A stretch of 64,000 nucleotides of DNA from NCBI RefSeq assembly GCF_023897065.1, contig NZ_JAMHIV010000038.1, positions 1-64,000 of the forward strand, written 5' to 3'. Positions 8,290 to 56,912 of this stretch are shown here, piece after piece. The notes beneath the pieces are model-generated. The model was not told the DNA's origin, did not search any database, and worked only from the letters and a program-made list of their open reading frames with translations. Position 1 is the stretch's first letter, and each line of letters starts with the position of its first letter. The stretch comes from Crossiella sp. SN42 (GTDB taxonomy: Bacteria; Actinomycetota; Actinomycetes; Mycobacteriales; Pseudonocardiaceae). A program made the position numbers and the translations under genes.

Positions 8290-8937
8290 CTATCCGGTCT
8301 TCGGGACCGCGGTCAGCGCGCACACGCCGTCCACGGTGTGGCAGAGCAGCTGGCTGAGCTCGTCCAGCAGCTGCGCCCGGCCCGGCCGCCGGTGCTCCAG
8401 CCACCAGTGGCACACCGCCTGCACCATCCCGGCCAGCGCGTAGCGCACCGGGTCCGGCGGCGGGGACGGGTTCAGGCCGGGGATCTCGCCGAGCAGGTCG
8501 GCCAGCGCGGTGACGATCGGGTCGGCCGCCTGGCCACCCCGAGGACCTGCCGGGTTGCTCAGGCTGAACCGGTAGAGCCATTGGTGCTCCATGATCACCA
8601 CCAGGTAGGCCTCCACCGCGCCGCGGATCCACTGCCGCCGGGTGCCCGCCTCGCGCAGGCCGGTCAGCGCGGGCCGCAGCCGGGCCAGCATCAGCTCGGC
8701 CGCCCGGTCGCCCGCGGCCTTGAGCAGTCCGGCCTTGTCGTAGAAGTAGTGGTACAGCAGGGGTTTGCTCACCCCGGCCGCGGCGGCCAGCTGGTCCATG
8801 CTGATCCCGGCGCCGTGCGTGGTGATCACCTTGATCGCGGTCTCCACCAGCTCCGCCCGCCGCGCGGCCGGGGCCATCCGCCTGCGCCGCCCCTCGCACG
8901 GGCGGCGGAGCGCGCTCTGCTCCAGGGGAGTGTCCAT
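8290..8937 (-). CDS. TetR family regulator, probable local regulator of the biosynthetic cluster
   Basis: A 215-residue TetR protein. The DNA-binding domain has T-H-G-A-G-I-S-M-D-Q-L-A-A-A-A-G-V-S-K-P-L-L-Y-H-Y-F, followed by the usual all-helical ligand domain with Q-W-L-Y-R-F and C-H-W-W. I place the start at the ATG at 8937, which has GGAGG just upstream. It is divergent from the first gene of the biosynthetic block at 9087, with a 149-base shared gap, so it is the natural candidate repressor of that block. The ligand is unknown. Confidence 0.88.
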   Translation of the reverse strand: MDTPLEQSALRRPCEGRRRRMAPAARRAELVETAIKVITTHGAGISMDQLAAAAGVSKPLLYHYFYDKAGLLKAAGDRAAELMLARLRPALTGLREAGTRRQWIRGAVEAYLVVIMEHQWLYRFSLSNPAGPRGGQAADPIVTALADLLGEIPGLNPSPPPDPVRYALAGMVQAVCHWWLEHRRPGRAQLLDELSQLLCHTVDGVCALTAVPKTG

Positions 8938-9086: not shown

Positions 9087-10418
9087 ATGGCGGTGACTCC
9101 GAGAACAACGTCCACAGTGGACGTCGCGGTGGTCGGCGGCCGGGTCGCGGGCGCCGCGCTGGCGGCCAGGCTGGCCAGGGCCGGGCTGCGGGTGGCGGTG
9201 TACGAGCGGGCGGTGGAGCTCGGGCCGACGCTGTCCACGCACATCTTCCACGGCACCCAGGACCTGCGCGCCGAAGGCGTCTACGCGGACCTGGTGGCCG
9301 CCGGGGTGCCGCCGCTGCCGGAGGTCCAGGTGCGCCTGGACGAGCTGCGGCTGACCTTCCGGCACCCCGACGACCCCGGGCTGTGCCCGCCGCGTGAGCT
9401 GCTGGACAACCTGCTGCTGGACCGGGCCCGCGCGGCCGGGGCGCAGGTGCATCTGGGCCGCCCGGTGGTCGGGCTGCTGCGCGAGCGCGACCGGGTGACC
9501 GGGGTGGAGGTGGCCGACCAGGACGGGCGGGTGCGGCCGGTGCGGGCCCGGCTGGTGGTCGGCGCGGACGGGCGCAGCTCGCCGGTGGCCCGCTGGGTGC
9601 GCGCCACCCAGTACCTGACCTTCCGCAGCGGCCGCGGCCAGGTGTGGCGGTACTTCCGCGGCAAGCGGCTGCCCAGGGTGCTGCTGTGGCACCGGGCCGG
9701 CGCGCGGCTGGCGCACATCCTGCCCACCGGGGAGGAGGAGTACTACCTGTGCGCGCAGCCGCCGGTGGGCGATCCGGAGGACTTCCGGCGCACCGGGCCG
9801 GATGCGCTGCTGCCGTGGGTGGAGCGGGTCAGTCCGGAGATCGCCGAGCTCGCCAGCGGCGGCGAGCCGGTGGGCGGGCTGCGCCGGATGAGCGGCTACC
9901 CGTGCTTCTTCCGGCAGCCCTTCGGTCCGGGCTGGGCGCTGGCCGGGGACGCCGGGCACGCCAAGGACGCCACCATCGGCCACGGCATCACCGACGCGCT
10001 GCGCAACTCCGCCACCCTGGCCACCGCGCTGCTGTCCACTTGGGACGATCAGTCCGCGCTGCCGGAACGGTTGGGGGAGTGGGCGCGGCGGCGGGACGAG
10101 GCCGAGCTGGCCAACTTCTGGTACAGCCAGGAGCTGGGCGACGCGGCTCCGGTCGGCGCGCTGCGCAAGGCCTTCTTCCGCGGGCTCGACGCCACCGGCG
10201 TCCGCAGGCTGGACGAGGTCATGGCGGACAAGCGGGACGCCGACACCCTGCTCACCGCGACCCGGCTGGCCCGCACCGCGCTGAACCAGGTCCTCTCCGG
10301 TGTGCCCGCGCCGGAGGTGCTCCGCGAGGCCGGTGTGCTGGTGCGGCTGAACCTGCTGCGCCGCAAGGCTTTCCGGGAACGCGCCGGGCAGGCGCCGAGC
10401 TTGGCGGTGTCCCGATGA
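9087..10418 (+). CDS. FAD-dependent oxidoreductase (geranylgeranyl reductase/monooxygenase type)
   Basis: A 443-residue flavoprotein. The Rossmann dinucleotide motif is V-V-G-G-R-V-A-G-A-A-L-A near residue 15, and later come V-V-G-A-D-G-R-S-S and G-D-A-G-H. These are the three FAD contacts of the group A monooxygenase and geranylgeranyl reductase family. In the first motif the usual G-x-G-x-x-G reads G-G-R-V-A-G. The start at 9087 has GAAGGGG upstream; an earlier in-frame start at 9033 has none. It is the first gene of block 1 and overlaps the next by four bases. Substrate unknown; an oxidation or N-oxygenation on the pathway intermediate fits the context. Confidence 0.8.
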   Translation: MAVTPRTTSTVDVAVVGGRVAGAALAARLARAGLRVAVYERAVELGPTLSTHIFHGTQDLRAEGVYADLVAAGVPPLPEVQVRLDELRLTFRHPDDPGLCPPRELLDNLLLDRARAAGAQVHLGRPVVGLLRERDRVTGVEVADQDGRVRPVRARLVVGADGRSSPVARWVRATQYLTFRSGRGQVWRYFRGKRLPRVLLWHRAGARLAHILPTGEEEYYLCAQPPVGDPEDFRRTGPDALLPWVERVSPEIAELASGGEPVGGLRRMSGYPCFFRQPFGPGWALAGDAGHAKDATIGHGITDALRNSATLATALLSTWDDQSALPERLGEWARRRDEAELANFWYSQELGDAAPVGALRKAFFRGLDATGVRRLDEVMADKRDADTLLTATRLARTALNQVLSGVPAPEVLREAGVLVRLNLLRRKAFRERAGQAPSLAVSR

Positions 10419-11776
10419 CCCTCGCGCACACCTCGCCCTGGGGCGACGCTCTGGCCGCCGAGCCGCTGCTGCCGCCGCTGACCGGCAGGCACCGCGCGGA
10501 TGTCGTGGTGGTGGGCGGCGGGATCGCCGGGTTGTCGCTGGCGCACCGGCTGCGCGAAGAGCTGCCCTCGGCGCGGATCCTGCTGCTGGAGGCCGTGGTG
10601 GTCGGCGGCGGCGCGACCGGGCACAGCACCGGGCTGGCCAGGCCGGGTGTGTGGGGCTCGATGCGGTTGCTACACAAGCGGGTCGGGGCCGCGGCCGCGG
10701 AAAGTCTGACCAGGGCCTCCCTGGCGGGAATGGCCGCGTTGCACGACCTGGTCACGTCCGAGGGCATCGACTGCGACCTGGTGCGTGGCCGGATGTACCA
10801 GCTGCCGGTCACCGCCGAGCACGTCCGGCGCTACACCGGCGACCTGCCGGAGCTGAACCGCCTGGGTATGGAGGCGGACTGGCTCTCGTCCCGGGAGACC
10901 GCGGAAACCCTTGGGCTGCAAGGCGGATTCGGCGCGCTGCGGGTGGCTCCGCTCTACCAGCTGGACCCGCTTCGGCTGTGCCGCGGCCTGCGGGACCTGC
11001 TGGTGGCGCGCGGGGTGGAGGTGTTCGAGGGCACGCCGGTGCGCTCGGTCGAACCCGGCGCGCGGGTGCGGGTGCGTACCGATCTCGGCGAGGTGGACGC
11101 GGCTGAGGTGGTGCTCGCGATCGACGGCTACACCAGGGTTTCCGGGCTGGTGGAGCTGCCGGTGGTGCCGTTCCGCTCGCAGGCCCTGTGCACCGAACCC
11201 CTCTCCACCGACCAGCTCGCCGCGCTCCCGCTGCGGCCGGGTGACCTGGTGCTGGACTCGCGGGCCTACTTCAACTACGCGCGGCTGAGCCCGGACGGCA
11301 GGCTCATCCTCGGCGGCGGCCGCGCGGCCAACCCCAGCACCCGGCCCGGCACCCAGCCCAGGGTCTCCGGCGGCACCTGGCGACGTCTGGAACGCGAGTT
11401 GCGCCAACTGTTCCCGGCCCTGGACGGGGTGCGCATAGCCCGGTCCTGGGCCGGGGTCAGCGGGGCCACCCCGGACTGGATGCCGATCGTCGGCCAGGTC
11501 CAGCCCGGCGTGTGGTTCGCCGGCGGCTGGAACGGCCGGGGCATCGCGCCCGCCCTGCACACGGCGGGCTGGCTCAGCGGCCAGCTCGCCGCCGCCCTGC
11601 ACGGACAAGCCCTGCCGCCGCCCACCGTGCCCTGGCACCGCGGCGGGGCCAGGCCCGCGCCGGTGCTGGACCGGCTGCGCTACCCGCTGCGCCAGGGCTT
11701 CCTCGAACTCAACGACCGCCGTTCCCTGCACACCGGACGTCGCGCGCCGCTCCGCTTCGGCCGCGACGGGAAATGA
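10415..11776 (+). CDS. FAD-dependent amino acid oxidase-like protein (DAO family)
   Basis: A 453-residue DAO-fold flavoprotein. An N-terminal A-D-V-V-V-V-G-G-G-I-A-G-L-S motif binds FAD, A-T-G-H-S-T-G follows, and the family C-terminal block G-V-S-G-A-T-P-D-W-M-P-I-V-G with G-G-W-N-G-R-G is present. Glycine and sarcosine oxidases of this fold oxidise the C-N bond of amino acids and N-substituted amino acids to an imine. The ATG overlaps the previous stop (ATGA), so the two are translated together. In this cluster it could act on an N-alkyl or hydrazino amino acid intermediate; that is inference. Confidence 0.8.
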   Translation: MTLAHTSPWGDALAAEPLLPPLTGRHRADVVVVGGGIAGLSLAHRLREELPSARILLLEAVVVGGGATGHSTGLARPGVWGSMRLLHKRVGAAAAESLTRASLAGMAALHDLVTSEGIDCDLVRGRMYQLPVTAEHVRRYTGDLPELNRLGMEADWLSSRETAETLGLQGGFGALRVAPLYQLDPLRLCRGLRDLLVARGVEVFEGTPVRSVEPGARVRVRTDLGEVDAAEVVLAIDGYTRVSGLVELPVVPFRSQALCTEPLSTDQLAALPLRPGDLVLDSRAYFNYARLSPDGRLILGGGRAANPSTRPGTQPRVSGGTWRRLERELRQLFPALDGVRIARSWAGVSGATPDWMPIVGQVQPGVWFAGGWNGRGIAPALHTAGWLSGQLAAALHGQALPPPTVPWHRGGARPAPVLDRLRYPLRQGFLELNDRRSLHTGRRAPLRFGRDGK

Positions 11777-13000
11777 GTGTCCACAATGGATAAATGCCCG
11801 GTCCGTCCCGACCCGGCCGACGCCGCGCTGTTCGACGAGGACTACCAGCGCGACCCCTACCCCTCCTACGCCCGGCTGCGCGCGGTGTCCCCGGTGCGCT
11901 ATGTGACCCTGCCGACCGGACTGACCGCCTGGCTGGTCACCGGCTACGAGGAGGTCCGGCAGGCGCTGACCGATCCGTTGCTGAGCAAGGAAAGCCGCTA
12001 CGACGCCGAGTCCGTCCAGGGCCTGTCGCCGAGCATGGGCGCGAGCATGCTCAACCTGGACCCGCCCGACCACGACCGGCTGCGCCGCCTGGTCGGCAGC
12101 GCGTTCACCCGCCGCCGGATCGAGGCCCTGCACGACACGCTGCACGACGCCGCCGACCGGCTGATCGACGAGTTCGCCCCGCGCGGGCAGGCCGACCTGA
12201 TGCGGGAGTTCGCGCTGCGGCTGCCGGTCGGCATGATCGGCGAGCTGCTCGGCGTGCCGGAGCAGGACCGGGACGCCTTCTTCGAGCTGGCCCACGACTA
12301 CGTCGGCTTCACCCCGGAGACCAGGGAGCAGGCCGCGGCCGCGCTGGCCGGGCTGAACCAGTACATGGCCGGGCTGATCGCGGCCAAGAAGCACGCGCCC
12401 GGCGAGGACCTGATCAGCGCGATGATCGCGGCCAGGGACGAGCAGCGGCGGCTCACCGACGAGGAGCTGCTGGCCAACGCGCTGCTGCTGTTCCTGGCCG
12501 GGCACGTCACCACCGCCGGCCTGATCGCCAACGCCACCCTGGCCCTGCTGCGCCACCCCGACCAGCTCGCCGCCTTCCGCGCCGACCCGGACCTGGTGAC
12601 CAACCTGGTGGAGGAGGCGCTGCGGTACGAGGGACCGGCCGAGCTGTCCACCATGCGCTGGGCCAAGCAGGAGACCGTGATCGGCGGGGTGACGATCGGC
12701 AAGGGCGAGCGGGTGCTGGTCTCCCTCGGCGCGGCCAACCGGGACCCGCGCCGCTTCGCCGACCCGGACGTCTTCGACCTGGCCCGCGCCGACGCCAACG
12801 CGCATCTCGGCCTTGGCCACGGCATCCACTACTGCCTCGGCGCGCAGCTGGCCAGGGCCGAGGTGCGCACCGCGCTGGCCCGCCTGTTCGCCCGGCTGCC
12901 CGACCTGCGGCTGAACGCGCGCTTCGAGGACCTGGAGTGGATGCCGGGGATCGGCCGCGCCCCGCTGTCCCTGCCCATCGTGTTCACCCCGGGAGGCTGA
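11777..13000 (+). CDS. Cytochrome P450
   Basis: A 407-residue soluble bacterial P450. The heme loop L-G-H-G-I-H-Y-C-L-G supplies the Cys ligand, and E-E-A-L-R gives the E-x-x-R pair of helix K. Helix I reads A-G-H-V-T-T: the threonine is kept, but the acid usually found before it is Val, which is unusual. The GTG at 11777 follows directly on the stop of the oxidase. The start codon sits in a copy of the dispersed palindrome. A ferredoxin partner is not encoded nearby. Likely a tailoring hydroxylase or desaturase of the product. Confidence 0.92.
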   Translation: MSTMDKCPVRPDPADAALFDEDYQRDPYPSYARLRAVSPVRYVTLPTGLTAWLVTGYEEVRQALTDPLLSKESRYDAESVQGLSPSMGASMLNLDPPDHDRLRRLVGSAFTRRRIEALHDTLHDAADRLIDEFAPRGQADLMREFALRLPVGMIGELLGVPEQDRDAFFELAHDYVGFTPETREQAAAALAGLNQYMAGLIAAKKHAPGEDLISAMIAARDEQRRLTDEELLANALLLFLAGHVTTAGLIANATLALLRHPDQLAAFRADPDLVTNLVEEALRYEGPAELSTMRWAKQETVIGGVTIGKGERVLVSLGAANRDPRRFADPDVFDLARADANAHLGLGHGIHYCLGAQLARAEVRTALARLFARLPDLRLNARFEDLEWMPGIGRAPLSLPIVFTPGG

Positions 13001-13003
13001 GGC

Positions 13004-13447
13004 GTGGATCCGCGCAACCTGTTCGAGACCCGCACCACCTACCGCCTGCTCCGCCTGGAATACCTGGCCGCGCTGGGCGTGTGCGGCTGGCTCCTCTTGG
13101 TGCACTGGGACGAGGTGCGGCTGCTGCCCGCGCTGCTGCTGTTCGCCTACATCGACGTCATCGGCTACCTGCCCGGCCTGATCGCCTTCCGCCGCAGCGA
13201 AACCGGCAAGATCCACCGCGGTTTTTACGTGGCCTACAACCTGGCGCACAGCTTCGTCACCGCTGGGCTGGTCGCGCTGCTGTGGTGCTGGCTGGTGCGA
13301 CCGGAGTGGGCGCTGCTGGCCATCCCGATCCACCTGTGCGGCGACCGGGGGCTGCTCGGCAACTTCCTCAAACCGTTCGCGGTGTCCTTCGAGCCCAAGC
13401 CGCACCCGGCCTACCTCCGGCTGGCCGCCGCGGTGGCATCGCGGTGA
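13004..13447 (+). CDS. Small integral membrane protein, candidate VlmO-like rearrangement enzyme
   Basis: A 147-residue protein with about four hydrophobic segments (near residues 20-35, 42-60, 75-95 and 103-115). Conserved-looking polar residues lie within or next to them: Y-I-D, Y-N-L-A-H-S and I-H-L-C-G-D-R. The Y-N-x-x-H and H-x-x-x-D-R pairs resemble DUF4260-type membrane proteins, from memory. The gene starts at GTG 13004 just after the P450 and overlaps the DUF2156 gene by four bases. In valanimycin biosynthesis a small membrane enzyme, VlmO, follows the aminoacyl transferase step and forms the N-N bond. The pairing here suggests the same role; sequence identity has not been tested. 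Confidence 0.6.
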   Translation: MDPRNLFETRTTYRLLRLEYLAALGVCGWLLLVHWDEVRLLPALLLFAYIDVIGYLPGLIAFRRSETGKIHRGFYVAYNLAHSFVTAGLVALLWCWLVRPEWALLAIPIHLCGDRGLLGNFLKPFAVSFEPKPHPAYLRLAAAVASR

Positions 13448-14424
13448 CCGCCGTGGACCTGCTGCGCGCGCACGCCCGCAGCTCCAGCGCGTTCCTGGCC
13501 TACAACCAGGACACCGAGCACTTCCAGACCCCGGGGATCGACGGCCTCATCGCCTACCGGCCGGCCGGTAGACGGCACCTGGTGCAGCTGACCGGGCCGT
13601 GCGCGGCCGAGGCCGACCAGGCAGCGCTGACAGCGGCCTTCCGCGCCTTCGCCGCCGGACAGGGCCGCCGGATCACCGCCGTGCAACTGGGCAAGGAGGA
13701 GGCCGCGGCCTGCGCCGAACTGGGCTACGCGGTCAACCAGCTCGGCGCCTCCTTCAGCATCGACTTGGGCCAGTTCACCTTGCGTGGCGGCAAGCTCGCC
13801 GAGACCCGCAACCGGCTCTCCCAGGCCCGCCGCGCCGGGGTCCAGGTCACCGAGGAGTCCACAATGGACAGTGAGCTGGCGCTGACCCTGACCGCGATCG
13901 ACCAGGAGTGGCTGTGCGCCAAGGGCCGCGCGGTCAAGCAGCTCGGCTTCATGGTCGGTGAGCGCGGCGGCCGGGGCGCGGCGCACCGCAGGCTGTTCGT
14001 GGCCAGGGCGGCGGAGCGGATCGTCGCCTACATCTCCTTCTCCCCGGTCTACGGGCCACGGCCGGGCTGGCTCTACGACCTGACCCGCCGCCACCCCGCC
14101 GCCCCGACCGGCGCGATCGAGTCGGTCATCGCCCACGCCGCGGAGGTCTTCCGCGGCGAGGGCGCTGAGTGGCTGCACCTGGGCTTCACGCCGTTCGTCC
14201 AGCTCCACCCGGAACACCGGATTCCCGGCGCGCACAACAAGATTCTCGACGGGGTCATGCGCCGGATCGCCGGGCGGGAGCGCTGGCTGTACTCCGCGCG
14301 CACCCAGGAGCGGTTCAAGACCAAGTGGGCCCCGCACCTGGTCGAGCCCGAGTACCTGGCCTTCGAGCACGGCCTCAGCCTCGGCGCGGGCTACCGGTTG
14401 CTACGGTTGATCGGGGCGCTGTGA
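13444..14424 (+). CDS. DUF2156 / lysylphosphatidylglycerol-synthetase C-terminal-like aminoacyl transferase
   Basis: A 326-residue protein made only of the double GNAT-like catalytic domain found at the C-terminus of MprF-type phosphatidylglycerol lysyltransferases; the membrane flippase half is absent. Visible family features are K-E-E-A-A-A-C-A-E-L-G-Y in the first lobe, and L-Y-D-L-T-R-R and F-K-T-K-W-A-P in the second. The family takes an aminoacyl group from a charged tRNA. VlmA of valanimycin biosynthesis, which moves seryl from tRNA to an alkylhydroxylamine, is to my knowledge of this kind. The GTG start overlaps the membrane protein gene. Last gene of block 1. Confidence 0.75.
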   Translation: MTAVDLLRAHARSSSAFLAYNQDTEHFQTPGIDGLIAYRPAGRRHLVQLTGPCAAEADQAALTAAFRAFAAGQGRRITAVQLGKEEAAACAELGYAVNQLGASFSIDLGQFTLRGGKLAETRNRLSQARRAGVQVTEESTMDSELALTLTAIDQEWLCAKGRAVKQLGFMVGERGGRGAAHRRLFVARAAERIVAYISFSPVYGPRPGWLYDLTRRHPAAPTGAIESVIAHAAEVFRGEGAEWLHLGFTPFVQLHPEHRIPGAHNKILDGVMRRIAGRERWLYSARTQERFKTKWAPHLVEPEYLAFEHGLSLGAGYRLLRLIGAL

Positions 14425-14425
14425 C

Positions 14426-15112
14426 TCAGACTCCCGCGATACTCCGGATCCAGTCCCGGTAGGCGCCGACGTGGGTGTACTGGCAGCTGGTGTCGTTGCC
14501 GGTGGAGAGCACGCCGACCTGGTTGCCGTTGGGCGCGAACATCGGTCCGCCGGAGTCGCCGGTGCCGCACACGCCGTTGATCCGCTCGCCGTTGATCGCC
14601 CGGCCGCCCTTGTAGTCCTCGGCGGACACGTTGGTGACCTTCAGCTTCGCGTTCTTCAGCTTCGGTGACTGCTGACCCTGCTCGGTCTGGCCCCAGCCGT
14701 GGATGGTGACCGTGTTCCCCACCGCGACATCGGCCAGGGCGCCCAGCTTCACCGCGGGCGCGCGCACCGGCTTGGCCAGCTTCAGCAGCGCCAGGTCGGC
14801 GTTGGTGTGCACGGTCAGGCCGCCGGGGGCCACGTCCACGTACTGGCCCTTGGCGTGCTCCACATTCCCGATCCGGAAGCCCCACTGGTGGTTGCCGCCC
14901 ACGCAGTGCTCGGCGGTGAGGATCCACTGCGCGGCGATGACGGTGGCGGTGCAGTAGCCGTCCTTGCCGTCCTGGTAGAGCCGGGCGCTCCACGGCGCTG
15001 ACGCGGTGAACTCGCCGTTGACGATGGTCACGCCCGCCTGGGCCGGGGCCGCCAGGCCGAGCAGCACGGCCGAGCCGGCCAGCAGACCGGCGATGAAGTT
15101 CCTCGCGCGCAC
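14426..15112 (-). CDS. Secreted trypsin-like serine protease (S1 family)
   Basis: A 228-residue preprotein. The first 27 residues form a signal peptide (R-A-R-N then a hydrophobic stretch ending A-P-A-Q-A). The catalytic triad is complete: His in W-I-L-T-A-E-H-C, Asp in N-A-D-L-A-L-L, Ser in G-D-S-G-G-P. Paired cysteines fit extracellular life. The GTG start at 15112 has GGAGG four bases upstream; an earlier ATG at 15184 would add a non-hydrophobic extension. It lies on the opposite strand between the two biosynthetic blocks and is probably not part of the pathway. Confidence 0.88.
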   Translation of the reverse strand: MRARNFIAGLLAGSAVLLGLAAPAQAGVTIVNGEFTASAPWSARLYQDGKDGYCTATVIAAQWILTAEHCVGGNHQWGFRIGNVEHAKGQYVDVAPGGLTVHTNADLALLKLAKPVRAPAVKLGALADVAVGNTVTIHGWGQTEQGQQSPKLKNAKLKVTNVSAEDYKGGRAINGERINGVCGTGDSGGPMFAPNGNQVGVLSTGNDTSCQYTHVGAYRDWIRSIAGV

Positions 15113-15284
15113 AACGCCTCCAGTGCCACCGGCTCCGCAGGCCGGATGCCCGGACGCTAAGCGCCGGTCAGCGCCGCGGAACACCGACTAAAGCACTGCG
15201 CAATTCAGTTCAGTCGGCTCGCGGTATCCAGCCGGGCACCCAGCGCCACTGTGCCAGTGACGAAGCCAGCCGAGAGGGAGACCG

Positions 15285-16913
15285 ATGAGCCCAGGGGTTC
15301 CGGTGCCGACCTACCTGTCCTACGTGGCGGGGAAGGAGATCGACTCCGACCGTTACGTCTACACCGTGGGCGCGCGGCCGATCCTCACCGACCTGTTCGG
15401 CAGCCTGACCCTGAAACGGCGGCTGGAACAGGGCCAGCTCGACCCGGCCACCGTGGCCGACCGGGTGGTCGGGCGGTGCGCACTGGCCGATGAGGACACC
15501 ATGGCCGCCGCGGTGGCCGCCGCCGCCGAGGCCGCACCCGCCTGGGGCGCCACCCCACTGGCTGTCCGGGTCGAGCTGGCCCTGGCGCTGCGGCAGCGGA
15601 TCCTGGCCGGGCACAAGGACCTCGTGGACGTGCTCATCGCCGAGGGCAACCCGCGGCCGTTGGCCGAGTGGCAGGTGGCCGGGATGCTGTCGGTGGCCAG
15701 CGAGGAGACCGTGGGCTGGCTGGCCGGGCAGCTGGAACAGGAGTTCCGGCACGGCGACCGGCGACTGCTGCTGCGACGGCGGCCGGACGGGGTGGTCTGC
15801 GTCAACCCGCCGCAGAACGCGCCGGCCACCAGCGCCCTGTTCGGCGCCACCGCGCTGATGGCGGGCAACACCGTGGTGGTGCGCGCCCCGCGCAGCGCGC
15901 CGTTTGGTGTGATGCACGTGCTGCGCGAGTACGTGGTGCCCGCGCTCGCCGAGATCGGCGCGCCGCCCGGGGTGCTCAACATGTTCTGCGGCAGGCCGGG
16001 ACCGGCGCTGCGCGGCTGGCTGGCCGACCCGCTGGTGGACGACATCTTCTACACCGGCGGCGTCGAACGCGGACTTGAGCTGGAACGGGACTGCGTGGCC
16101 GCCGGGAAGAAACCGATCCTGGAGCTGGCGGGCAACGACTGCGTGGTGATCTGGCGGGACGCCGACCTGGACCTCGCGGTGGAGGCGCTCACCGAGTGCT
16201 TCTACGGCTCCGGCCAGATCTGCATGGTGCCCAACCAGGCCGTGGTGCACCCTGCCATCGCCGAGGAGCTGATCGCCAAGCTGCACACCGCGGTCACCGC
16301 GCTGCGCCCCGGCTACCCGGACGAGCCGGACGTGCTGCTGTCCCCGGTGCTGCGCGCCGAGCGTTTCGGCACCGTGGTCGAGGACGCCCTGGCCCGCGGC
16401 GCCACGCTCATCTGCGGCGGCGGGCGGCTGGAGGTCGACGGCGAACCCTCCGAGACCGGGCCGTTCCTGGCGCCCACCGTACTGCGGGTGGACGGCCTGG
16501 ACACCTGCCGGGAGCTGACCGCGGTCCGCGAGGAGACCTTCTTCCCGCTGCTGCCCGTGGTCGTGCCCGGCGAAGCCCCCGACGAGGAGCTGCTGGCCGC
16601 GATCTTGTCCTTTGTGGACAGCAACCGCTACGGCCTGCGCAACTCGTTGTGGGCCAAGGACAAGCAGGTCATCGAGGAGTTCCTGGCCAAGGTCGGCAAC
16701 GGCGGCCTGCTCAAGGTCAACGACTCGCACATCGGCTTCCTCCCTTACCTGCCCACGCACGGCGGCACCGGGCTCACCGGCGGCGCCTTCGGCGAGGCCA
16801 ACTACCTGGTGCTGCGCACCACCCACCTGCAGGGCGTGTCGGTAGCGGAGAACGTGCGGCCCAGCGCCGCGGTCTTCGAGGCCTACACCCGCATCACCGA
16901 ACCAGGAGCGTGA
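15285..16913 (+). CDS. Aldehyde dehydrogenase superfamily protein, possible acyl reductase
   Basis: A 542-residue ALDH-fold protein. The nucleophile lies in G-S-G-Q-I-C-M-V-P-N-Q and the general base Glu in I-L-E-L-A-G-N-D; the cofactor loop G-N-T-V-V-V-R-A-P is present. It is about 40-50 residues longer than common ALDHs, mostly at the N-terminus. A GAGGGAGACC ribosome site precedes the ATG. Beside an aminotransferase and an ACP it may run in the reductive direction, giving a fatty aldehyde for amination, but oxidation of an aldehyde cannot be excluded. It opens block 2 and abuts the next gene. Confidence 0.8.
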   Translation: MSPGVPVPTYLSYVAGKEIDSDRYVYTVGARPILTDLFGSLTLKRRLEQGQLDPATVADRVVGRCALADEDTMAAAVAAAAEAAPAWGATPLAVRVELALALRQRILAGHKDLVDVLIAEGNPRPLAEWQVAGMLSVASEETVGWLAGQLEQEFRHGDRRLLLRRRPDGVVCVNPPQNAPATSALFGATALMAGNTVVVRAPRSAPFGVMHVLREYVVPALAEIGAPPGVLNMFCGRPGPALRGWLADPLVDDIFYTGGVERGLELERDCVAAGKKPILELAGNDCVVIWRDADLDLAVEALTECFYGSGQICMVPNQAVVHPAIAEELIAKLHTAVTALRPGYPDEPDVLLSPVLRAERFGTVVEDALARGATLICGGGRLEVDGEPSETGPFLAPTVLRVDGLDTCRELTAVREETFFPLLPVVVPGEAPDEELLAAILSFVDSNRYGLRNSLWAKDKQVIEEFLAKVGNGGLLKVNDSHIGFLPYLPTHGGTGLTGGAFGEANYLVLRTTHLQGVSVAENVRPSAAVFEAYTRITEPGA

Positions 16914-18056
16914 ATGGATCTACAGTTCATGGCCGCCGACCGGGACGTCTGCGAGGAGCTGGCCCCCGGCCTGCGCGCGGAGCTCGCCGGGATGAGCCTG
17001 GCCGAACGGGAGGCCGACGACGGCAAGGCCATCCAGCTCTTCCGCGCCTGCGGGGCCTCGAACCTGCTGGTGCCCAAGGCTTACGGCGGCACTGGCGGCA
17101 CCGCCGTGCAGGCGATGGGCGTCATGCGGGCACTCGGCGCGCTGGCCCCGTCGATGGCGGTGGCCACCATGATGCACCACTTCTCCGTCGGCACCCTGTA
17201 CTCGATGCTCGACGCCATCGGCACCCAGGTGAACCTGGATCCCGTGCTGCCGAGACGGATCGCCAGTGACCGGCTGCTGCTGGCCTCCGGGTTCGCCGAG
17301 GGCAACACCGACCAGGACATCCTGCGCCCCACCCTGCGCGCCGAGCAGGTCGAGGGCGGCTACCTGGTCAACGGGGTGAAGAAGCCGTGCAGCCTGTCCC
17401 GCTCGATGGACCTGCTCTCGGCCAGCGTGGCGGTGCCCACCGGCGACGGCGAGGCCGACTTCGGGCTGATCCTGCTGCCCGCCATGACCCCCGGGCTCTC
17501 CGTGCACCCGTTCTGGTCCACCTTCGCCCTGGCCGGGGCGGAGAGCCACGAGGTCCGGCTCACCGACGTCTTCCTCACCGAGGACCAGCTGGTGCGCACC
17601 ACCCCGGAACTGGCCGTGCGCATGCTCGAGCTCCAGATCCTCGGCCTCACCTGGTTCCAGCTCAGCGTCTGCTCTGTCTACAGTGGACTCGCCGGGGCAC
17701 TGGTCGAGCGGGTGCTGCACCGGGGCCGGGGCAGTGCGGCCGACCGGGCCGCGCTGGTCATCCGGCACCAGAGCGCCGCACTGCTCACCGAGGGCCTGGC
17801 CCGCCGGATCGACGCCGGGGACACCGGGGCGGACACCCTGACCGCGGCCCTGGTCACCCGGCACACCGTGCAGGAACTGGTCACCAGCACCGCCTCCGCG
17901 GCCGCGGAACTGCTGGGCGGCATGGCCTTCATCGCCGCCGGCGAGATCGGCTACCTGCTGGCCGCCGCGCACGCGGTCGCCTTCCACCCACCCGGCCGGA
18001 CCGGCACTACGCAGACCGTGCTCGGCCACCTCAGCTCGGCCAGGGACGCGACATGA
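16914..18056 (+). CDS. Acyl-CoA dehydrogenase-fold flavoprotein, possible amine N-hydroxylase
   Basis: A 380-residue protein of the acyl-CoA dehydrogenase superfamily. It has the N-terminal helical domain (L-L-V-P-K-A-Y-G-G-T-G-G-T), the middle beta domain (G-F-A-E-G-N-T-D, then Y-L-V-N-G-V-K-K) and the C-terminal helical bundle. The C-terminal Y-E-G-T-type segment, with the catalytic Glu of true dehydrogenases, is not visible. Two-component N-hydroxylases such as VlmH share this fold, and a fatty amine hydroxylase would fit between the adjacent aminotransferase and the DUF2156 protein. Desaturation of the chain is the alternative. It ends in a four-base overlap with the aminotransferase gene. 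Confidence 0.75.
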   Translation: MDLQFMAADRDVCEELAPGLRAELAGMSLAEREADDGKAIQLFRACGASNLLVPKAYGGTGGTAVQAMGVMRALGALAPSMAVATMMHHFSVGTLYSMLDAIGTQVNLDPVLPRRIASDRLLLASGFAEGNTDQDILRPTLRAEQVEGGYLVNGVKKPCSLSRSMDLLSASVAVPTGDGEADFGLILLPAMTPGLSVHPFWSTFALAGAESHEVRLTDVFLTEDQLVRTTPELAVRMLELQILGLTWFQLSVCSVYSGLAGALVERVLHRGRGSAADRAALVIRHQSAALLTEGLARRIDAGDTGADTLTAALVTRHTVQELVTSTASAAAELLGGMAFIAAGEIGYLLAAAHAVAFHPPGRTGTTQTVLGHLSSARDAT

Positions 18057-19306
18057 CCGTGGACCTCGCGGCGGCCGAGGCGGAGTTCGAGCGCACCGCC
18101 ACCGCCTACCGCACCCACCTCAGCCGCGGCCGGGCCGCGCTGGGCGAGCTGTTCGGCCGCGAGCTGGAACAGTCGGCCACCGGGGCCTGGGTGCGCACCA
18201 GCCGCGGCCGGGAACTGCTCAACTGCGGTGGCTACGGCGTGCTGCTGATGGGCGCCCGCCACCCCAGGGTGGTCGCCGCAGTGCGCGCCCAGCTGCACAC
18301 CCTGCCGGTGTCGGCCAAGCTGCTGCTCGAACCGGTCGCGGCCAAGGCCGCCGCCGCGCTCACCGCGATAGCACCGTCCACAATGGACAAAGTGCACTTC
18401 GCCTGCTCCGGCGCGGAGGCGGTGGAGACCGCGATCAAGCTCGCCCGCACGCACGGCCGCACCCACCTGATCTCGGCCAAGAACGGCTACCACGGCAAGA
18501 CCCTCGGCGCGCTCAGCGTCACCGCGCGCAGTGTGTTCCAGGAACCGTTCCGGCCGCTGCTGCCCGGCGTCTGCCACGTGCCCTACGGCGACCCGGACGC
18601 GCTGCGCCGGGAGCTGGCCGCGCACGAGGGCAGGGCTGCGCTGATCCTGGAACCCGTGCAGGGCGAGGCCGGCGTGATCTTGCCACCGGCGGGCTACCTG
18701 GCCGAGGCGCAGCGGCTGTGCCGGGAGTACGGGGCCTTCTTCATCCTGGACGAGGTGCAGACCGGCCTGGGCCGCCTCGGCCACTGGTGGGGCGCGGACC
18801 GCGAGCGGATCACCCCGGACGTGCTGGTGGCAGGCAAGGCGCTCGGCGGCGGGGTGCTGCCGGTGTCCGCGGTGCTGGCCACCGAGTCCGCCTTCCGCGC
18901 CTTCGACCGCGACCCCTACCTGCACACCTCCACCTTCTCCGCCAGCCCGCTGGCCATGGCCGCGGTGTGCGGGGCGATCGAGGCGATCCAGGAAGGCGGC
19001 CTGGTCGAGGCCGCGGGCAGGCTCGGCGAACACATCCGGAACAAGCTTTCCGCGCTGTGCCAGGACATCCTCGGCTCCCGGGTGCGGGAGGTGCGCGGCG
19101 CCGGCCTGCTCATCGGCATCGAGTTCAGCAGGCCGGGTATGGCCGCGGACCTGCTGGCCGAGCTGATGGCCGCCGGGGTCATCGCCAACCACTCGCTCAA
19201 CTCCGCCCAGGTGCTGCGGCTCACCCCGCCGGCCACCCTGGACGAGGCCGAGCTGGACTTCCTCGTCCAGGCCTTCGCCACCGCGGCCAAGGCGGTGGCC
19301 GGATGA
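18053..19306 (+). CDS. Class III pyridoxal-phosphate aminotransferase
   Basis: A 417-residue fold-type I enzyme. The cofactor-phosphate region is S-G-A-E-A-V-E-T-A-I-K, the ring-stacking Asp is in F-I-L-D-E-V-Q-T-G, and the Schiff-base lysine is in V-A-G-K-A-L-G-G-G. These are omega-aminotransferase signatures, used on amino groups distant from a carboxylate or on simple aldehydes and amines. In this operon it most likely converts a fatty aldehyde, or a ketone made by the ketosynthase, into an amine. ATG overlaps the upstream stop and its own stop overlaps the next ATG. Confidence 0.92.
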   Translation: MTVDLAAAEAEFERTATAYRTHLSRGRAALGELFGRELEQSATGAWVRTSRGRELLNCGGYGVLLMGARHPRVVAAVRAQLHTLPVSAKLLLEPVAAKAAAALTAIAPSTMDKVHFACSGAEAVETAIKLARTHGRTHLISAKNGYHGKTLGALSVTARSVFQEPFRPLLPGVCHVPYGDPDALRRELAAHEGRAALILEPVQGEAGVILPPAGYLAEAQRLCREYGAFFILDEVQTGLGRLGHWWGADRERITPDVLVAGKALGGGVLPVSAVLATESAFRAFDRDPYLHTSTFSASPLAMAAVCGAIEAIQEGGLVEAAGRLGEHIRNKLSALCQDILGSRVREVRGAGLLIGIEFSRPGMAADLLAELMAAGVIANHSLNSAQVLRLTPPATLDEAELDFLVQAFATAAKAVAG

Positions 19307-19776
19307 GGCGGATCCACCTGCTGGCCGAGGTTCCCGGCGCCAGCCCCGCGCAAGCCTTCACCCTGCTCACCGACTTCACCCGCTTCCCGGCCATCGCCGA
19401 GGAGGTGCGCTCCGTCGAGGTCTTCCCCGGCCGGCCACGGCATTCCGCCTGGGAGGTCGCCTTCCGCCGCGGCCGGTTGCGCTGGCGGGAGTGGGAACAC
19501 CTCGACCCGGCGACCACCAGCGTCGAGTTCGGCCAGGTCGACGGCGACTTCGAGCACTTCCGCGGCGCCTGGCGGATCACCGGGGCCGAAGCCGGCTGCA
19601 CGGTGGACTTCCAGGTGGACTTCGACTTCGGCATCGACAGCCTCGCCGAGGCCATGGACCCGGTGGCCGAACGGCTGCTGCGCGGGGTCATGGGCTCCGT
19701 CCTGAGTGGACTCTTCGGCGCGGACACCCAACTGCACGACCTGCCCCCCATCCCTGTGGAAAGGACCAACCCATGA
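19303..19776 (+). CDS. SRPBCC (START-like) cyclase/lipid-transport type protein
   Basis: A 157-residue helix-grip protein. The pattern A-F-T-L-L-T-D-F-T-R-F-P near residues 18-29, W-R-E-W-E-H in the central sheet, and a long C-terminal helix (D-S-L-A-E-A-M-D-P-V-A-E-R-L-L) fit the polyketide cyclase and coenzyme-Q-binding branch. Such proteins hold hydrophobic intermediates; some catalyse cyclisation or dehydration. No acidic or His catalytic dyad can be named from sequence alone. It overlaps both neighbours by four bases and lies directly before the ACP, so it may handle ACP-bound intermediates. Confidence 0.75.
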   Translation: MRRIHLLAEVPGASPAQAFTLLTDFTRFPAIAEEVRSVEVFPGRPRHSAWEVAFRRGRLRWREWEHLDPATTSVEFGQVDGDFEHFRGAWRITGAEAGCTVDFQVDFDFGIDSLAEAMDPVAERLLRGVMGSVLSGLFGADTQLHDLPPIPVERTNP

Positions 19777-20012
19777 GCACCCTGCTCGACCAGCTGACCT
19801 CGCTGCTGACCACCCGCTTCGGCGTGCCGCCCGAGGAGGTCCGGCCCGAGGCCACCTTCGCCGAGCTCGACCTGGACTCCCTCGCCCTGGTGGAACTGGG
19901 CCTGGTGACCGAGAAGGAGTTCGGGGTCAGGGTCAAGGACAACGAAGTGTCCACTTCGGACACCCTGGCCACCATCGCCTCGCTGATCGAGTCCAAGCGC
20001 GAGGCCGCCTGA
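19773..20012 (+). CDS. Acyl carrier protein
   Basis: A 79-residue carrier protein. The phosphopantetheine serine is Ser36 in the motif L-D-L-D-S-L-A-L-V-E-L, in which the usual D-S-L is intact. Four-helix length and acidic helix II are as expected. The ATG overlaps the SRPBCC stop, and its stop shares a base with the ketosynthase start. Being inside the cluster, it is probably a pathway-dedicated carrier rather than the housekeeping AcpP. Confidence 0.93.
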   Translation: MSTLLDQLTSLLTTRFGVPPEEVRPEATFAELDLDSLALVELGLVTEKEFGVRVKDNEVSTSDTLATIASLIESKREAA

Positions 20013-21229
20013 TGAACGGCCTCGCGATCACCGGGCTCGGCCTGGTCACCGCCGCGGGCATCGGCGTGGAAGCCAGCTGGGCGGGGATCCTGCGCGGCGA
20101 GTCCACCGCCAGTGCCGACCCCGCGCTCTCCGGCATGGTCACCGACTTCAGCTGCCGGGTGCCCGGCTTCGACGCCGACGCCCAGCTCGGCCGCCGCACC
20201 GCCTGGCGGCAGGAACGCTGCGCGCACCTGGCCAGGGTCGCCGCCCGCGAGGCCGTCGCGGACAGCGGCCTGGACCCCACCACCTGGAACGGCGCACGGG
20301 TCGGCGTGGTGGTGGGCAACTCCCTCGGCGGCACCATGACCTTCGAGCAGCAGTACGAGATCCTGCGCGCCGAGGGCGAGTCCCAGGTGACCCCGCTGCT
20401 GATCCCGATGGCAGGCACCGGCTCGCCCACCGCCTGGCTCAGCCTCGACCTCGGCGCCCGCGGCCCCAGCCTGGCCCCGGCCACCGCCTGCGCCTCCGGG
20501 GCCACCGCGCTCGGGGTGGCCTGGGACTGGCTGCGCTCCGGGATCTGCGACGTGGTGGTCACCGGCGGCGCGGAGTCCGCGCTGTCCCCGCTGATCATGG
20601 CCGGGTTCGGGCAGCTCGGCGCGCTGTCCACCCGCAGCGCGGATCCGGCGACCGCCTCCCGGCCCTTCGACGCCGACCGGGACGGCTTCGTCGCCGCCGA
20701 GGGCGCTGGAATCCTTGTCCTGGAAAGGATCGAGGACGCCAAGGCGCGCGGCGCGCGGGTGCACGCCCGGCTGGCCGGGTACGGCGGGGCCTCCGACGCC
20801 TTCCACATCACCGCCCCGCACCCACAGGGCGACGGTGTGGAACGGGCCAGCCGGATCGCCTTGGAAGCCGCCGGGCTCCACCCCTCCGACATCGGGCACG
20901 TCAACGCGCACGGCACCTCCACCCCGATGAACGACGTGATCGAGGGCAGCCTGATCAAGCGGCTCTACCCCGAGGGCACCCCGGTCACCTCGGTCAAGGG
21001 CGCCATCGGGCACGCCCTCGGCGCGGCAGGCGGGATCGAGGCGGTGTGCACGGTGCTGTCCGTGCGCGACGGCATCGTGCCGCCGACGGCCAACCTGGAC
21101 CGCCTGGACCCACGGATCGACCTGGACATCGTGCACAAGATCCCGCGGCAGCTTGACCTCCAGGCCGCGGTCAGCAACTCCTTCGGCTTCGGCGGGGCCA
21201 ACGGCGTGGTGGTGCTGACCCGTGACTGA
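20012..21229 (+). CDS. Beta-ketoacyl-ACP synthase, KAS II type
   Basis: A 405-residue thiolase-fold condensing enzyme. The nucleophile is in T-A-C-A-S-G, the two catalytic histidines in N-A-H-G-T-S-T-P and K-G-A-I-G-H-A-L-G-A, giving the Cys-His-His set of elongating synthases. The C-terminal S-F-G-F-G-G-A-N is also intact. There is no chain-length-factor partner, so this is a fatty-acid-like elongation enzyme and not a type II polyketide pair. The start overlaps the ACP stop by one base and its end overlaps the enoyl reductase by eight. Confidence 0.93.
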   Translation: MNGLAITGLGLVTAAGIGVEASWAGILRGESTASADPALSGMVTDFSCRVPGFDADAQLGRRTAWRQERCAHLARVAAREAVADSGLDPTTWNGARVGVVVGNSLGGTMTFEQQYEILRAEGESQVTPLLIPMAGTGSPTAWLSLDLGARGPSLAPATACASGATALGVAWDWLRSGICDVVVTGGAESALSPLIMAGFGQLGALSTRSADPATASRPFDADRDGFVAAEGAGILVLERIEDAKARGARVHARLAGYGGASDAFHITAPHPQGDGVERASRIALEAAGLHPSDIGHVNAHGTSTPMNDVIEGSLIKRLYPEGTPVTSVKGAIGHALGAAGGIEAVCTVLSVRDGIVPPTANLDRLDPRIDLDIVHKIPRQLDLQAAVSNSFGFGGANGVVVLTRD

Positions 21230-22019
21230 GCCGAAGCTGTTGTCCGGCAAGAAGATCCTCATCACCGGCGTGCTCACCGAGAGCTCCATCGCCTACGGGG
21301 TGGCCAGGATGGCCCAGGAGCACGGCGCGGAGATCGTGCTCACCGGCTTCGGCCGCGGCCTGCGCATCACCGAGGCCATCGCGGAAACCCTGCCCCAGCC
21401 CTGCGACGTGCTGGAGCTCGACGTCACCAAACCCGAGCACCTGGACGCGGTCTCCGACGCGCTCTACGCCCGCTGGGGTCACCTGGACGGGGTGCTGCAC
21501 TCGGTGGCTTTCGCCCCGCCCAGCGCGCTCGGCGGCGGCTTCCTCACCGCGGAGTGGGCGGAGGTGGCCACCGCGCTGCACATCTCCACCTACTCCTTCG
21601 CCGCCTTCGGCCGGGTCTTCGGCCCGCTGCTGGCCAAGTCCGCGCACGGCTCCCTGGTCGGCCTGGACTTCGACGCCAGCCTGGCCTGGCCCGGCTACGA
21701 CTGGATGGGCGTGGCCAAGGCGGGCCTGGAAAGCTGCTGCCGCTACCTCGCACAAGCGCTGGGGCCACAGGGCACCAGGGTCAACCTGGTCGCCTGCGGT
21801 CCACTTAGGACGCTCGCCGCGCGCGGCATCGGCGGCTTCGACCAGCTGGACCGGGTGTGGGCGGACCGGGCCCCGCTGGGCTGGGACCAGACCGACACCG
21901 AACCGGTGGCCAGGGTGGTGTGCGCGCTGCTCTCGCCGTGGCTGCCCTCGGTCACCGGGGAGATCCTGCACGTCGACGGCGGGGCGCACGCGGTCGGCGC
22001 GGGCCAGGAGAGGGGATAG
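21222..22019 (+). CDS. fabI: Enoyl-ACP reductase, FabI/InhA type
   Basis: A 265-residue short-chain dehydrogenase of the FabI class. The start of the Rossmann fold is I-L-I-T-G-V-L-T-E-S-S-I-A-Y-G, and the catalytic pair Tyr-x6-Lys is Y-D-W-M-G-V-A-K, spaced as in FabI and InhA. The S-V-A-F-A-P motif follows. GTG start at 21222 lies inside the ketosynthase gene. Actinomycetes normally carry one InhA-like gene for growth; a copy inside a biosynthetic operon is either dedicated to this pathway or protects against a FabI-targeting product. Confidence 0.9.
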   Translation: MTEPKLLSGKKILITGVLTESSIAYGVARMAQEHGAEIVLTGFGRGLRITEAIAETLPQPCDVLELDVTKPEHLDAVSDALYARWGHLDGVLHSVAFAPPSALGGGFLTAEWAEVATALHISTYSFAAFGRVFGPLLAKSAHGSLVGLDFDASLAWPGYDWMGVAKAGLESCCRYLAQALGPQGTRVNLVACGPLRTLAARGIGGFDQLDRVWADRAPLGWDQTDTEPVARVVCALLSPWLPSVTGEILHVDGGAHAVGAGQERG

Positions 22020-22023
22020 CCGG

Positions 22024-22500
22024 ATGCGGATCTTCAGCAGTATCGCCGAGCTGCGCGCCTCGGCAGGCCAGCGGCTGGGCGAGAGCGGCTGGCACACCGT
22101 CAGCCAGCGCCGGATCGCCGAGTTCGCCGAGGTCACCGAGGACCGGCAGTGGATCCACCTGCACGCCGAACGGGCCAGGGAGGGCATGTTCGGCGGGCCC
22201 ATCGCGCACGGCTTCCTCACCGTCTCGCTGATCCCGGCGCAGCTGCGCGAGACCATGCACGTGGACGGGGTCGACCTGGTGATCAACAAGGGCATGGACC
22301 GGCTGCGCTTCCACCAGCCGGTGCCGGTCGGCGCCCGGGTGCGCGCGGTGTTCGAGCTGCTCACCGCCACCGAGCGGGCCCTCGGCTTCACCGACCTCCA
22401 GCTGGGCGTCACCGGCGAGGTCGAGGGCAAGGCCGAGGCCGCCTACACCGCCCGGATGCGGATGCTGCTGCACGCCCCCGAACTGGCGCCGACGGGCTGA
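22024..22500 (+). CDS. MaoC family (R)-hydroxyacyl dehydratase
   Basis: A 158-residue single hotdog-fold protein with the hydratase-2 motif E-V-T-E-D-R-Q-W-I-H, giving the Asp/His pair, and G-P-I-A-H-G-F-L-T after it. These proteins remove or add water at the 3-position of acyl-ACP or acyl-CoA. Together with the ketosynthase and enoyl reductase it gives three of the four elongation activities. A ketoreductase is not in the operon and must come from primary metabolism. It is the last gene, five bases after fabI, and is followed by a strong hairpin. Confidence 0.9.
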   Translation: MRIFSSIAELRASAGQRLGESGWHTVSQRRIAEFAEVTEDRQWIHLHAERAREGMFGGPIAHGFLTVSLIPAQLRETMHVDGVDLVINKGMDRLRFHQPVPVGARVRAVFELLTATERALGFTDLQLGVTGEVEGKAEAAYTARMRMLLHAPELAPTG

Positions 22501-22542: not shown

Positions 22543-22650
22543 CGCGTCATGTCTGGGGTAATTCGGTATTTCGCACATTTGGAGTAACCATTCACCGAGC
22601 CTCCGCGACAGGGAGGACATAGTCGCTGGTGAAGTGTGTGGGGTCAGTCA

Positions 22651-54904: not shown

Positions 54905-54978
54905 GCCCCGGTAGCCCAACCGGCAGAGGCAGCGGACTCAAAATCCGTCCAGTGTGGGTTCGACTCCCACCCGGGGCA
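54905..54978 (+). tRNA. tRNA-Leu (anticodon CAA)
   Basis: A 74-base cloverleaf. The acceptor stem GCCCCGG / CCGGGGC is perfect, the T arm is GTGGG-TTCGACT-CCCAC, and the anticodon arm GCGGA-CTCAAAA-TCCGT gives anticodon CAA. The variable loop is only about five bases although leucine tRNAs usually have a long variable arm. The CCA end is not encoded. The 3' half is the probable attachment site of the following element. Confidence 0.85.
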
Positions 54979-54999
54979 CAGCGCTTGACCACACAAACA

Positions 55000-55034
55000 C
55001 AGCCCATGACCAGGCAGAACCCGGTCATGGGCTG
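55000..55034 (+). terminator. Hairpin downstream of the tRNA
   Basis: Perfect 12-base stem CAGCCCATGACC / GGTCATGGGCTG with an 11-base loop followed by ATCTTGTCTTGT, 22 bases past the tRNA. It could end the tRNA transcript and, from the other side, the integrase transcript. Confidence 0.6.
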
Positions 55035-55112
55035 ATCTTGTCTTGTCCGGCTGTGTCCGGTCGTCACCGGCGAAATACGGGCGTTTGCGTCCAATACGCA
55101 TCCAAGTTCGAG

Positions 55113-56483: not shown

Positions 56484-56680
56484 CAAGCGGCGCCCTTCTC
56501 TGCCAGGGATTCGAGCCACTGCTCGTAGTCGTCGAGGCGGATGCGTAGATCGCCGTTAGGCAGCTTCACGCAGCGCGGGCCGCGCTTCTTGGCCCGCCAG
56601 TCGTAGAAGGTCGACCGAGCCACGCCGAGGCTCGCGCAGACTTCGGGCACGGTGAGGAACTTGCGGGAGGCGGCGGCCAT
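56483..56680 (-). CDS. Excisionase-like MerR-type helix-turn-helix protein
   Basis: A 65-residue DNA-binding protein: F-L-T-V-P-E-V-C-A-S-L-G-V-A-R-S-T-F-Y-D-W is the helix-turn-helix and R-I-R-L-D-D-Y-E-Q-W-L the wing and C-terminal helix, the usual form of AlpA/Xis proteins on these elements. Coupled to the integrase by a one-base overlap. Confidence 0.88.
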   Translation of the reverse strand: MAAASRKFLTVPEVCASLGVARSTFYDWRAKKRGPRCVKLPNGDLRIRLDDYEQWLESLAEKGAA

Positions 56681-56903: not shown

Positions 56904-56912
56904 GCCCGCGGG

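Follow-up and report, generated by a model that had tools for sequence, protein, structure and literature searches.

In the pathway to the azoxy compound valanimycin, an amine is N-hydroxylated by the flavoprotein VlmH, aminoacylated from tRNA by VlmA and rearranged to a hydrazine by the membrane enzyme VlmO, and the diiron azoxy synthase VlmB then carries out the oxidation to the azoxy group. A 2023 paper that the consulted part of PMC11705231 cites calls the azoxy cascade conserved in its title, and the portion of PMC9379638 seen describes VlmB, VlmO and the flavin reductase VlmR as 'highly conserved' near VlmA. Here we describe a cluster of 13 genes in the first 64 kb (64,000 nucleotides, the window) of contig NZ_JAMHIV010000038.1 from the 9.7-Mb genome of Crossiella sp. 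SN42. A first-pass annotation of this DNA had predicted a counterpart for each of three steps, N-hydroxylation, aminoacylation and hydrazine formation, and all three were found. It had not recorded that VlmB and VlmR are both absent, nor that a DAO-family flavoprotein is the probable substitute for VlmB. Judged from gene content and from related loci, the cluster appears to be a variant of the azoxy pathway with an exchanged finishing enzyme, an exchange that recurs in other bacteria. Four genes are central to this proposal:

10415..11776, plus strand: DAO-family oxidase (glycine/sarcosine-oxidase fold), proposed stand-in for VlmB (PF01266, E 7.8e-59)
13004..13447, plus strand: VlmO-type membrane hydrazine-forming enzyme (D51, H82, H110 and D114; DUF4260, PF14079, E 0.0048, under cut-off)
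13444..14424, plus strand: VlmA-type aminoacyl-tRNA:hydroxylamine transferase (PF09924, the DUF2156 of the first-pass annotation, E 5.5e-55; tree)
16914..18056, plus strand: VlmH-type N-hydroxylase of the acyl-CoA dehydrogenase (ACAD) fold (N-terminal and middle ACAD domains only)

The membrane protein carries D51, H82, H110 and D114 at the published numbering of VlmO, where these residues are essential according to the part of PMC11705231 consulted, and all 155 distinct VlmO homologues retain the four. Its weak match to DUF4260 resembles that published for Ady6 (PMC9379638, seen in part). A search among solved structures gave no relative of VlmO, its single match standing at E 0.55. In two pairs of loci (L008 and L017 from genome G003, L012 and L022 from G033), the VlmO matches read through one TGA near the start, which probably reflects a later start codon. 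For the PF09924 protein, a tree separated 78 cluster enzymes, the window protein included, from 27 other PF09924 proteins drawn from its own genome, family and order (SH-aLRT 100). Its best identities to these 27 are 28-32%, and its lowest identity to the cluster enzymes is 38%. The window flavoprotein has no match to PF00441, its closest solved chains are DszC monooxygenases, and it belongs to the same protein community as VlmH of VlmB-type loci. At the position of the ACAD catalytic glutamate, proline is found in 150 of 150 distinct cluster flavoproteins. The same position is occupied by glutamate in seven and by glycine in three of ten ordinary ACADs of the same genome; the three glycine-bearing ACADs carry a glutamate at the other site known for it, a gapped part of the alignment in which the window protein shows none. 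A dehydrogenase function of the ACAD-fold protein was ruled out on the basis of this proline. The assignment of the three steps is thereby upheld: the membrane protein is related to VlmO, the PF09924 protein lies with the cluster enzymes and not with proteins of the lipid lysyl- or aminoacyltransferase type (MprF, LysX), and the flavoprotein lacks a dehydrogenase active site.

Profiles run on all open frames did not detect VlmB in the window cluster. Across the genome, the best match of the family profile reached 23.7 bits, where true members score 452-550 bits with a profile of the same family, and no match above 50 bits lay around the two places concerned (L191 and L192). An orthologue of VlmB encoded outside the cluster was thus not found by this whole-genome profile search or in the two regions. 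The family was first recognised from the neighbourhoods of 90 loci. The predicted model of a member from Streptomyces atratus (mean pLDDT 94) matches PDB 8wvr, 'azoxy synthase VlmB', with a TM score of 0.97 and 50% identity, from which we conclude that the family missing from the window is truly VlmB; at least 92% of 50 members retain two E-x-x-H motifs, as do all 11 sequences of alignment A6. A VlmR flavin reductase was likewise not found in the window cluster, nor in the stretch read of 27 of 77 VlmB-type loci. Three PF01613 flavin reductase matches are present elsewhere in the genome of the window, one of which could serve the VlmH counterpart.

The distribution of VlmB and the DAO-family oxidase was then compared across 176 VlmO loci, comprising the window, the 80 best of 141 matches from one pattern scan and 95 VlmO matches from genome draws of 60, 390 and 394. 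Merging 21 duplicates left 155 distinct loci, and counts were made with profiles on all open frames, with a threshold of 150 bits for the DAO family (which excluded one DAO match of 49 bits; some counted matches are cut by the end of the stretch, such as that of L041 with 180 bits). VlmB alone was found in 92 of the 155, the DAO gene alone in 50, neither in 13 and both in none. VlmA and VlmH were detected in 135 of the distinct loci; with the other 20 set aside, the count was 77 VlmB-type and 48 DAO-type loci and ten with neither, again with no case of both. Restricting these to the 114 whose sequence reaches 8 kb or more to either side of VlmO gave the same picture (63 VlmB, 46 DAO, five neither, none with both). 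Three of these last five (L042, L043 and L060) belong to a type whose relatives have the DAO gene at the edge of the stretch; the other two are L123 and L162. Fisher's test for the alternation gave p 5e-27, a value uncorrected for kinship. On FastTree trees of the 135 rows, the state has to change six times with the joined VlmH, VlmA and VlmO alignment, six times with VlmH, and seven times each with VlmA and VlmO. IQ-TREE with 78 rows, after 57 of the 135 had been thinned out, required eight changes, of which at least six are forced by well-supported branches, against a mean of 17.8 for shuffled states. Outside the genus, the nearest relatives of the window's VlmA, VlmH, aminotransferase and aldehyde dehydrogenase (ALDH) sit in VlmB-type clusters, as expected of a local oxidase swap.

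Within the window's family, 27 of 390 genomes had a VlmO homologue; such homologues also occurred in 60 of 394 genomes of a second family, taken as Streptomycetaceae, and in four of 396 across the phylum, including the window's own genome and one doubtful match (E 2e-4, in G471) that was left out of the locus set. DAO-type loci are found in Streptomycetaceae, Nocardiaceae, Micromonosporaceae, the family of the window and Burkholderiaceae. Five Paraburkholderia and Burkholderia loci (L028, L050, L058, L059 and L089) carry P450, VlmO, VlmA, DAO and VlmH counterparts and no VlmB, with an additional glutathione S-transferase-like gene in L028. Four DAO-type clusters (L018, L066, L111 and L113) retain VlmJ- and VlmK-like genes, which suggests that a serine-derived unit is dehydrated there in the absence of an azoxy synthase.

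The AlphaFold model of the window oxidase (mean pLDDT 85) has sarcosine oxidase beta, glycine oxidase and L-proline dehydrogenase as best fold matches. Sarcosine, glycine and proline oxidases or dehydrogenases act on N-substituted or secondary alpha-amino acids. Since the product of VlmO is an alpha-hydrazino acid, and as such an N-substituted amino acid, it is of the substrate type of the DAO fold. A control led by the DAO sequence in 61 Streptomyces genomes covered the four top matches and the six next-best. The four, all with at least 528 bits, adjoin cluster genes; VlmO is present in three of these loci (L159, L131 and L281), and in the remaining one (L280) the 7.3-kb contig ends first. 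No VlmO or VlmA was detected in the 20-kb stretches around the six next-best proteins, which scored 262-280 bits and came from six genomes.

Starting from what was directly observed, namely the gene content, the family membership of the VlmH, VlmA and VlmO counterparts, the absence of VlmB and its alternation with the DAO gene, we infer each reaction, the chain length, the amino acid donor and the final product as follows. An acyl-ACP would be built by the acyl carrier protein (ACP), the KAS II-type ketoacyl synthase, the MaoC-type dehydratase and FabI, with help from primary metabolism. The ALDH-fold enzyme may reduce it to the aldehyde, which the class III aminotransferase would convert to the amine. 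The VlmH-type flavoprotein, together with a flavin reductase encoded elsewhere in the genome, would yield the alkylhydroxylamine, the VlmA-type enzyme would place an aminoacyl group from an aminoacyl-tRNA onto the hydroxylamine oxygen, and the VlmO-type membrane enzyme would rearrange the O-aminoacyl product to R-NH-NH-CH(R')-COOH. In the absence of VlmB, the DAO flavoenzyme is then proposed to oxidise the N-C-alpha (or N-N) bond to give a hydrazone (azo tautomer). The hydrazone may stay as such or may hydrolyse to an alkylhydrazine and a keto acid, as with Apy10 in the cupin-type pathway, and the P450 and the FAD_binding_3 flavoprotein could finally tailor the product. By comparative reasoning we thus favour, with some confidence, an azoxy-type route that is followed as far as the hydrazine and then left, the DAO enzyme giving a hydrazone or perhaps an alkylhydrazine in place of an azoxy compound.

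Several results weigh against this interpretation. The DAO proteins of the clusters do not form one clade: those of Crossiella, of Burkholderiaceae and of the main actinobacterial group form separate branches divided by ordinary DAO proteins, which implies at least two changes, on a tree with long branches and weak deep support. The topology suggests, within the limits of that deep support, that cluster DAO proteins were recruited more than once, and their reactions may therefore differ between groups, the window protein being just 27-38% identical to the aligned cluster DAO proteins from outside Crossiella. A leucine-carboxyl-methyltransferase-like gene, assigned by Pfam on one member, is present in 17 of 48 DAO-type and two of 77 VlmB-type loci and would fit a carboxylate that is kept and not cleaved off. 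A kinship-aware test found eight independent pairs, in which VlmB went in the opposite direction in about five, did not differ in about three (DAO versus neither) and went the same way in none, with a median sign-test p of 0.0625; the alternation is therefore strong as a pattern and moderate in its kinship-aware statistics. Two loci, L123 (G126) and L162 (G1121), have VlmH, VlmA and VlmO with neither VlmB nor DAO within at least 20 kb on each side of VlmO, and perhaps represent a third outcome or decay.

These two loci can also be read in favour of the view that the DAO protein is an ordinary upstream amine or amino-acid oxidase, supplying for example an aldehyde or keto acid, that the hydrazine stays reduced and that VlmB was simply lost. 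The six next-best DAO regions outside clusters (L282 to L286 among them) fit such a role in that an ALDH-like gene is present in five and an aminotransferase-like gene in four, as in amine catabolism. The strict alternation with VlmB (none of 155 loci with both), repeated on the trees, is unexpected for an unrelated upstream enzyme, and the genes for making the aldehyde and the amine are already in the cluster, so that we consider an upstream role improbable. Slightly less improbable, though still unlikely, is an azoxy product after all, with the DAO enzyme taking the hydrazine to the azo stage and either the P450 or the FAD_binding_3 flavoprotein converting azo to azoxy, together in place of VlmB. 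Such a division between two enzymes is chemically reasonable because the VlmB route passes through an azo intermediate (PMC11705231, seen in part), and P450s of two profiled families occur in 23 of 48 DAO-type loci compared with six of 77 VlmB-type loci. Against this, the other 25 DAO-type loci have no P450 of these two families in the stretch read, and a DAO plus P450 combination is thus not a general rule. Finally, the presence of fatty acid genes beside a member of PF09924, a family of lipid aminoacyltransferases, could point to a pathway for an aminoacylated lipid or amine that involves no N-N chemistry. We rejected this as highly implausible on the basis of the VlmA tree and of a VlmO counterpart with its four essential residues, and the active-site change in the VlmH counterpart argues against it as well.

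Beyond the window, the hydrazone- or hydrazine-forming route that we favour raises the tentative idea, which we think rather doubtful as a whole, that the VlmA/VlmO pathway has a second, unrecognised branch, present in Actinomycetota and Burkholderiaceae. There a DAO enzyme, recruited more than once, would replace the azoxy synthase and turn the shared alkyl-hydrazino acid towards alkylhydrazines, hydrazones or hydrazides, and some of these clusters would be the missing source of hydrazide natural products such as the hydrazidomycins and geralcins. In one DAO subtype there is a WS/DGAT-like acyltransferase (17 of 48 DAO-type and none of 77 VlmB-type loci; Pfam on the L088 member) that would be in keeping with acyl hydrazides like hydrazidomycin D. 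This subtype also bears the carboxyl-methyltransferase-like gene (17 of 48), nearly the same DAO-type loci carrying both, which weakens the reading as a hydrazide source. Neither gene is present in the window cluster. The one S. atratus genome searched has a single VlmO locus, of the VlmB type, which again weighs against the hydrazide link.

The further genes of the cluster, together with the two regulators that flank it, are:

8290..8937, minus strand: TetR regulator, divergent from the cluster (PF00440, E 2.6e-11; FasR model under cut-off)
9087..10418, plus strand: FAD_binding_3 flavoprotein of the p-hydroxybenzoate-hydroxylase type, putative tailoring enzyme (PF01494, E 1.5e-17)
11777..13000, plus strand: cytochrome P450, PikC-like, tailoring (PF00067, E 2e-31; top PDB match PikC, E 3.7e-95)
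15285..16913, plus strand: ALDH-fold enzyme, proposed, like Ady2, to convert acyl-ACP/CoA to aldehyde (PF00171, E 2.3e-59)
18053..19306, plus strand: class III aminotransferase, proposed to convert aldehyde to amine (PF00202, E 9.4e-86)
19303..19776, plus strand: SRPBCC protein, conserved partner (PF03364, E 1.3e-20)
19773..20012, plus strand: ACP with DSL motif (PF00550, E 1.2e-11)
20012..21229, plus strand: ketoacyl synthase, KAS II type (TIGR03150, E 7.4e-131, under cut-off; NF005589 over cut-off)
21222..22019, plus strand: FabI-type enoyl reductase for chain building, or a spare resistant copy (NF005908, E 3.8e-113, over cut-off)
22024..22500, plus strand: MaoC-type dehydratase (PF01575, E 3.4e-20)
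22636..25896, plus strand: SARP-type regulator with BTAD, NB-ARC and TPR domains, probably belonging to this cluster (BTAD, E 5.3e-40)

Pfam and profile annotation recovered all 12 genes listed by the first-pass annotation, on the plus strand and in two blocks, and added a thirteenth that it had overlooked, encoding an SRPBCC ('polyketide cyclase') protein of 157 residues. Adjacent genes of a block share a few bases or are almost contiguous, which gives each block the appearance of a single operon. Between the blocks lies a trypsin-like gene on the minus strand (14426-15112); among the five Crossiella loci compared, it is also present in the same-species locus L105 and absent from L014, L015 and L017. 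The order of the 13 genes is identical in these four further genomes of the genus, which argues against a chance assembly. The SARP regulator is kept next to the cluster in L014, L015 and L017 (where it is cut by the end of the stretch) and the TetR regulator in L014 and L015. Further along the window, positions 54905-63679 hold a tRNA-Leu gene followed by genes for an integrase, a Prim-Pol protein, a C5 DNA methylase and a DpdA protein (deazapurine in DNA); this region is an integrated element.

The FAD_binding_3 flavoprotein starts with ATG at 9087, preceded by GAAGGGG, and among solved structures it comes closest to a geranylgeranyl-type reductase and to flavin halogenases (E 1e-10 to 1e-9). 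It is confined to five distinct Crossiella loci (five of 48 DAO-type, none of 77 VlmB-type). The ALDH-fold protein of the window aligns with SSADH at the active-site Cys and Glu, and its family occurs in 56 of 77 VlmB-type and 17 of 48 DAO-type loci. Models for putrescine aminotransferase and PigE match the aminotransferase below cut-off. The proposal that the cluster brings its own fatty chain supply holds only in part, for ACP, KAS II, FabI and MaoC; the cluster contains no gene for a ketoreductase, KAS III or malonyl transferase. In L017, the most distant of the Crossiella clusters, an extra short-chain dehydrogenase (PF00106, KR; L017:18632-19375) follows MaoC and could complete the chain-building set that is incomplete in the window. 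The statement that the cluster has neither adenylation domains nor a chain length factor proved correct. Pfam detected no adenylation domain in the 13 genes, which ruled out a nonribosomal peptide synthetase, and the single KAS, read by eye, keeps its Cys-His-His set and is therefore not a chain length factor; with none alongside it, a type II polyketide synthase was ruled out too.

The SRPBCC protein is a near-constant partner of the VlmO pathway in both the VlmB and the DAO types. Its gene is present in 113 of 135 distinct VlmO/VlmA/VlmH loci and lies directly beside VlmO in 74. The word SRPBCC was not found in the portions searched of two azoxy texts, and HamE of the fragin pathway is also named a polyketide cyclase or dehydratase in the part of PMC11705231 consulted.

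No description of VlmB-less, DAO-bearing VlmO clusters was found in the titles and abstract openings searched, which did not extend to the full texts and supplements of the key papers, and the exchange of VlmB for a DAO enzyme might thus be new. If it is real, about one third of the VlmO loci sampled (50 of 155 distinct, a sample and not a census) would use another finishing oxidase. Genome mining by VlmA and VlmH alone would then misjudge which functional group many clusters make, and a DAO gene in place of VlmB would serve as a genetic marker for alkylhydrazine or hydrazone natural products.

Geralcins possess a substituted hydrazine core. This is shared with the hydrazidomycins, and a DAO-cleaved VlmO product could supply such a core. 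Hydrazidomycin D is an acetyl and cis-vaccenoyl hydrazide (PMC6344404, seen in part). The texts consulted link no gene cluster to these products; the window cluster has no WS/DGAT-like acyltransferase. The comparison with azoxy clusters proposed by the first-pass annotation yielded counterparts of VlmH, VlmA and VlmO and none of VlmB and VlmR. With the valanimycin cluster the window cluster shares the VlmH, VlmA and VlmO steps, whereas counterparts of VlmB, VlmR, VlmL (SerRS), VlmJ and VlmK are missing and a fatty chain would take the place of isobutylamine. The likeness extends further for the azodyrecin (ady) and elaiomycin (ela) clusters, which have the dehydrogenase and the aminotransferase in addition to VlmH, VlmA and VlmO. 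ACP and KAS are likewise found in S. atratus JCM 3386 (L069), taken as the elaiomycin type. Compared with ady and ela, the window cluster lacks VlmB, the flavin reductase and a desaturase and adds the DAO oxidase, the P450, the FAD_binding_3 flavoprotein, FabI and MaoC.

A DAO-family enzyme after N-N bond formation is known from pathways that use cupin synthetases, where Spb39, Tri27 and Apy10 act at this point; oxidation of the C-alpha-N bond by Apy10 releases a terminal hydrazine together with pyruvate (PMC11705231; Spb39 is also treated in PMC13274452 and PMC10445470; all seen in part). The window oxidase has the DAO/glycine-oxidase fold of these three proteins, a likeness at the level of family and fold. 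In the window the N-N bond would be formed by VlmA and VlmO on a fatty alkyl hydroxylamine, in contrast to the cupin/MetRS protein and the hydroxylysine of the cupin pathways. The case bears on whether two unrelated N-N bond systems each acquired a DAO-type oxidase on their own. A DAO branch of the VlmO pathway would be convergent with s56-p1 (Spb39), triacsin (Tri27) and actinopyridazinone (Apy10) biosynthesis, sharing with them a DAO-family flavoenzyme that is predicted to act next after the N-N bond is formed.

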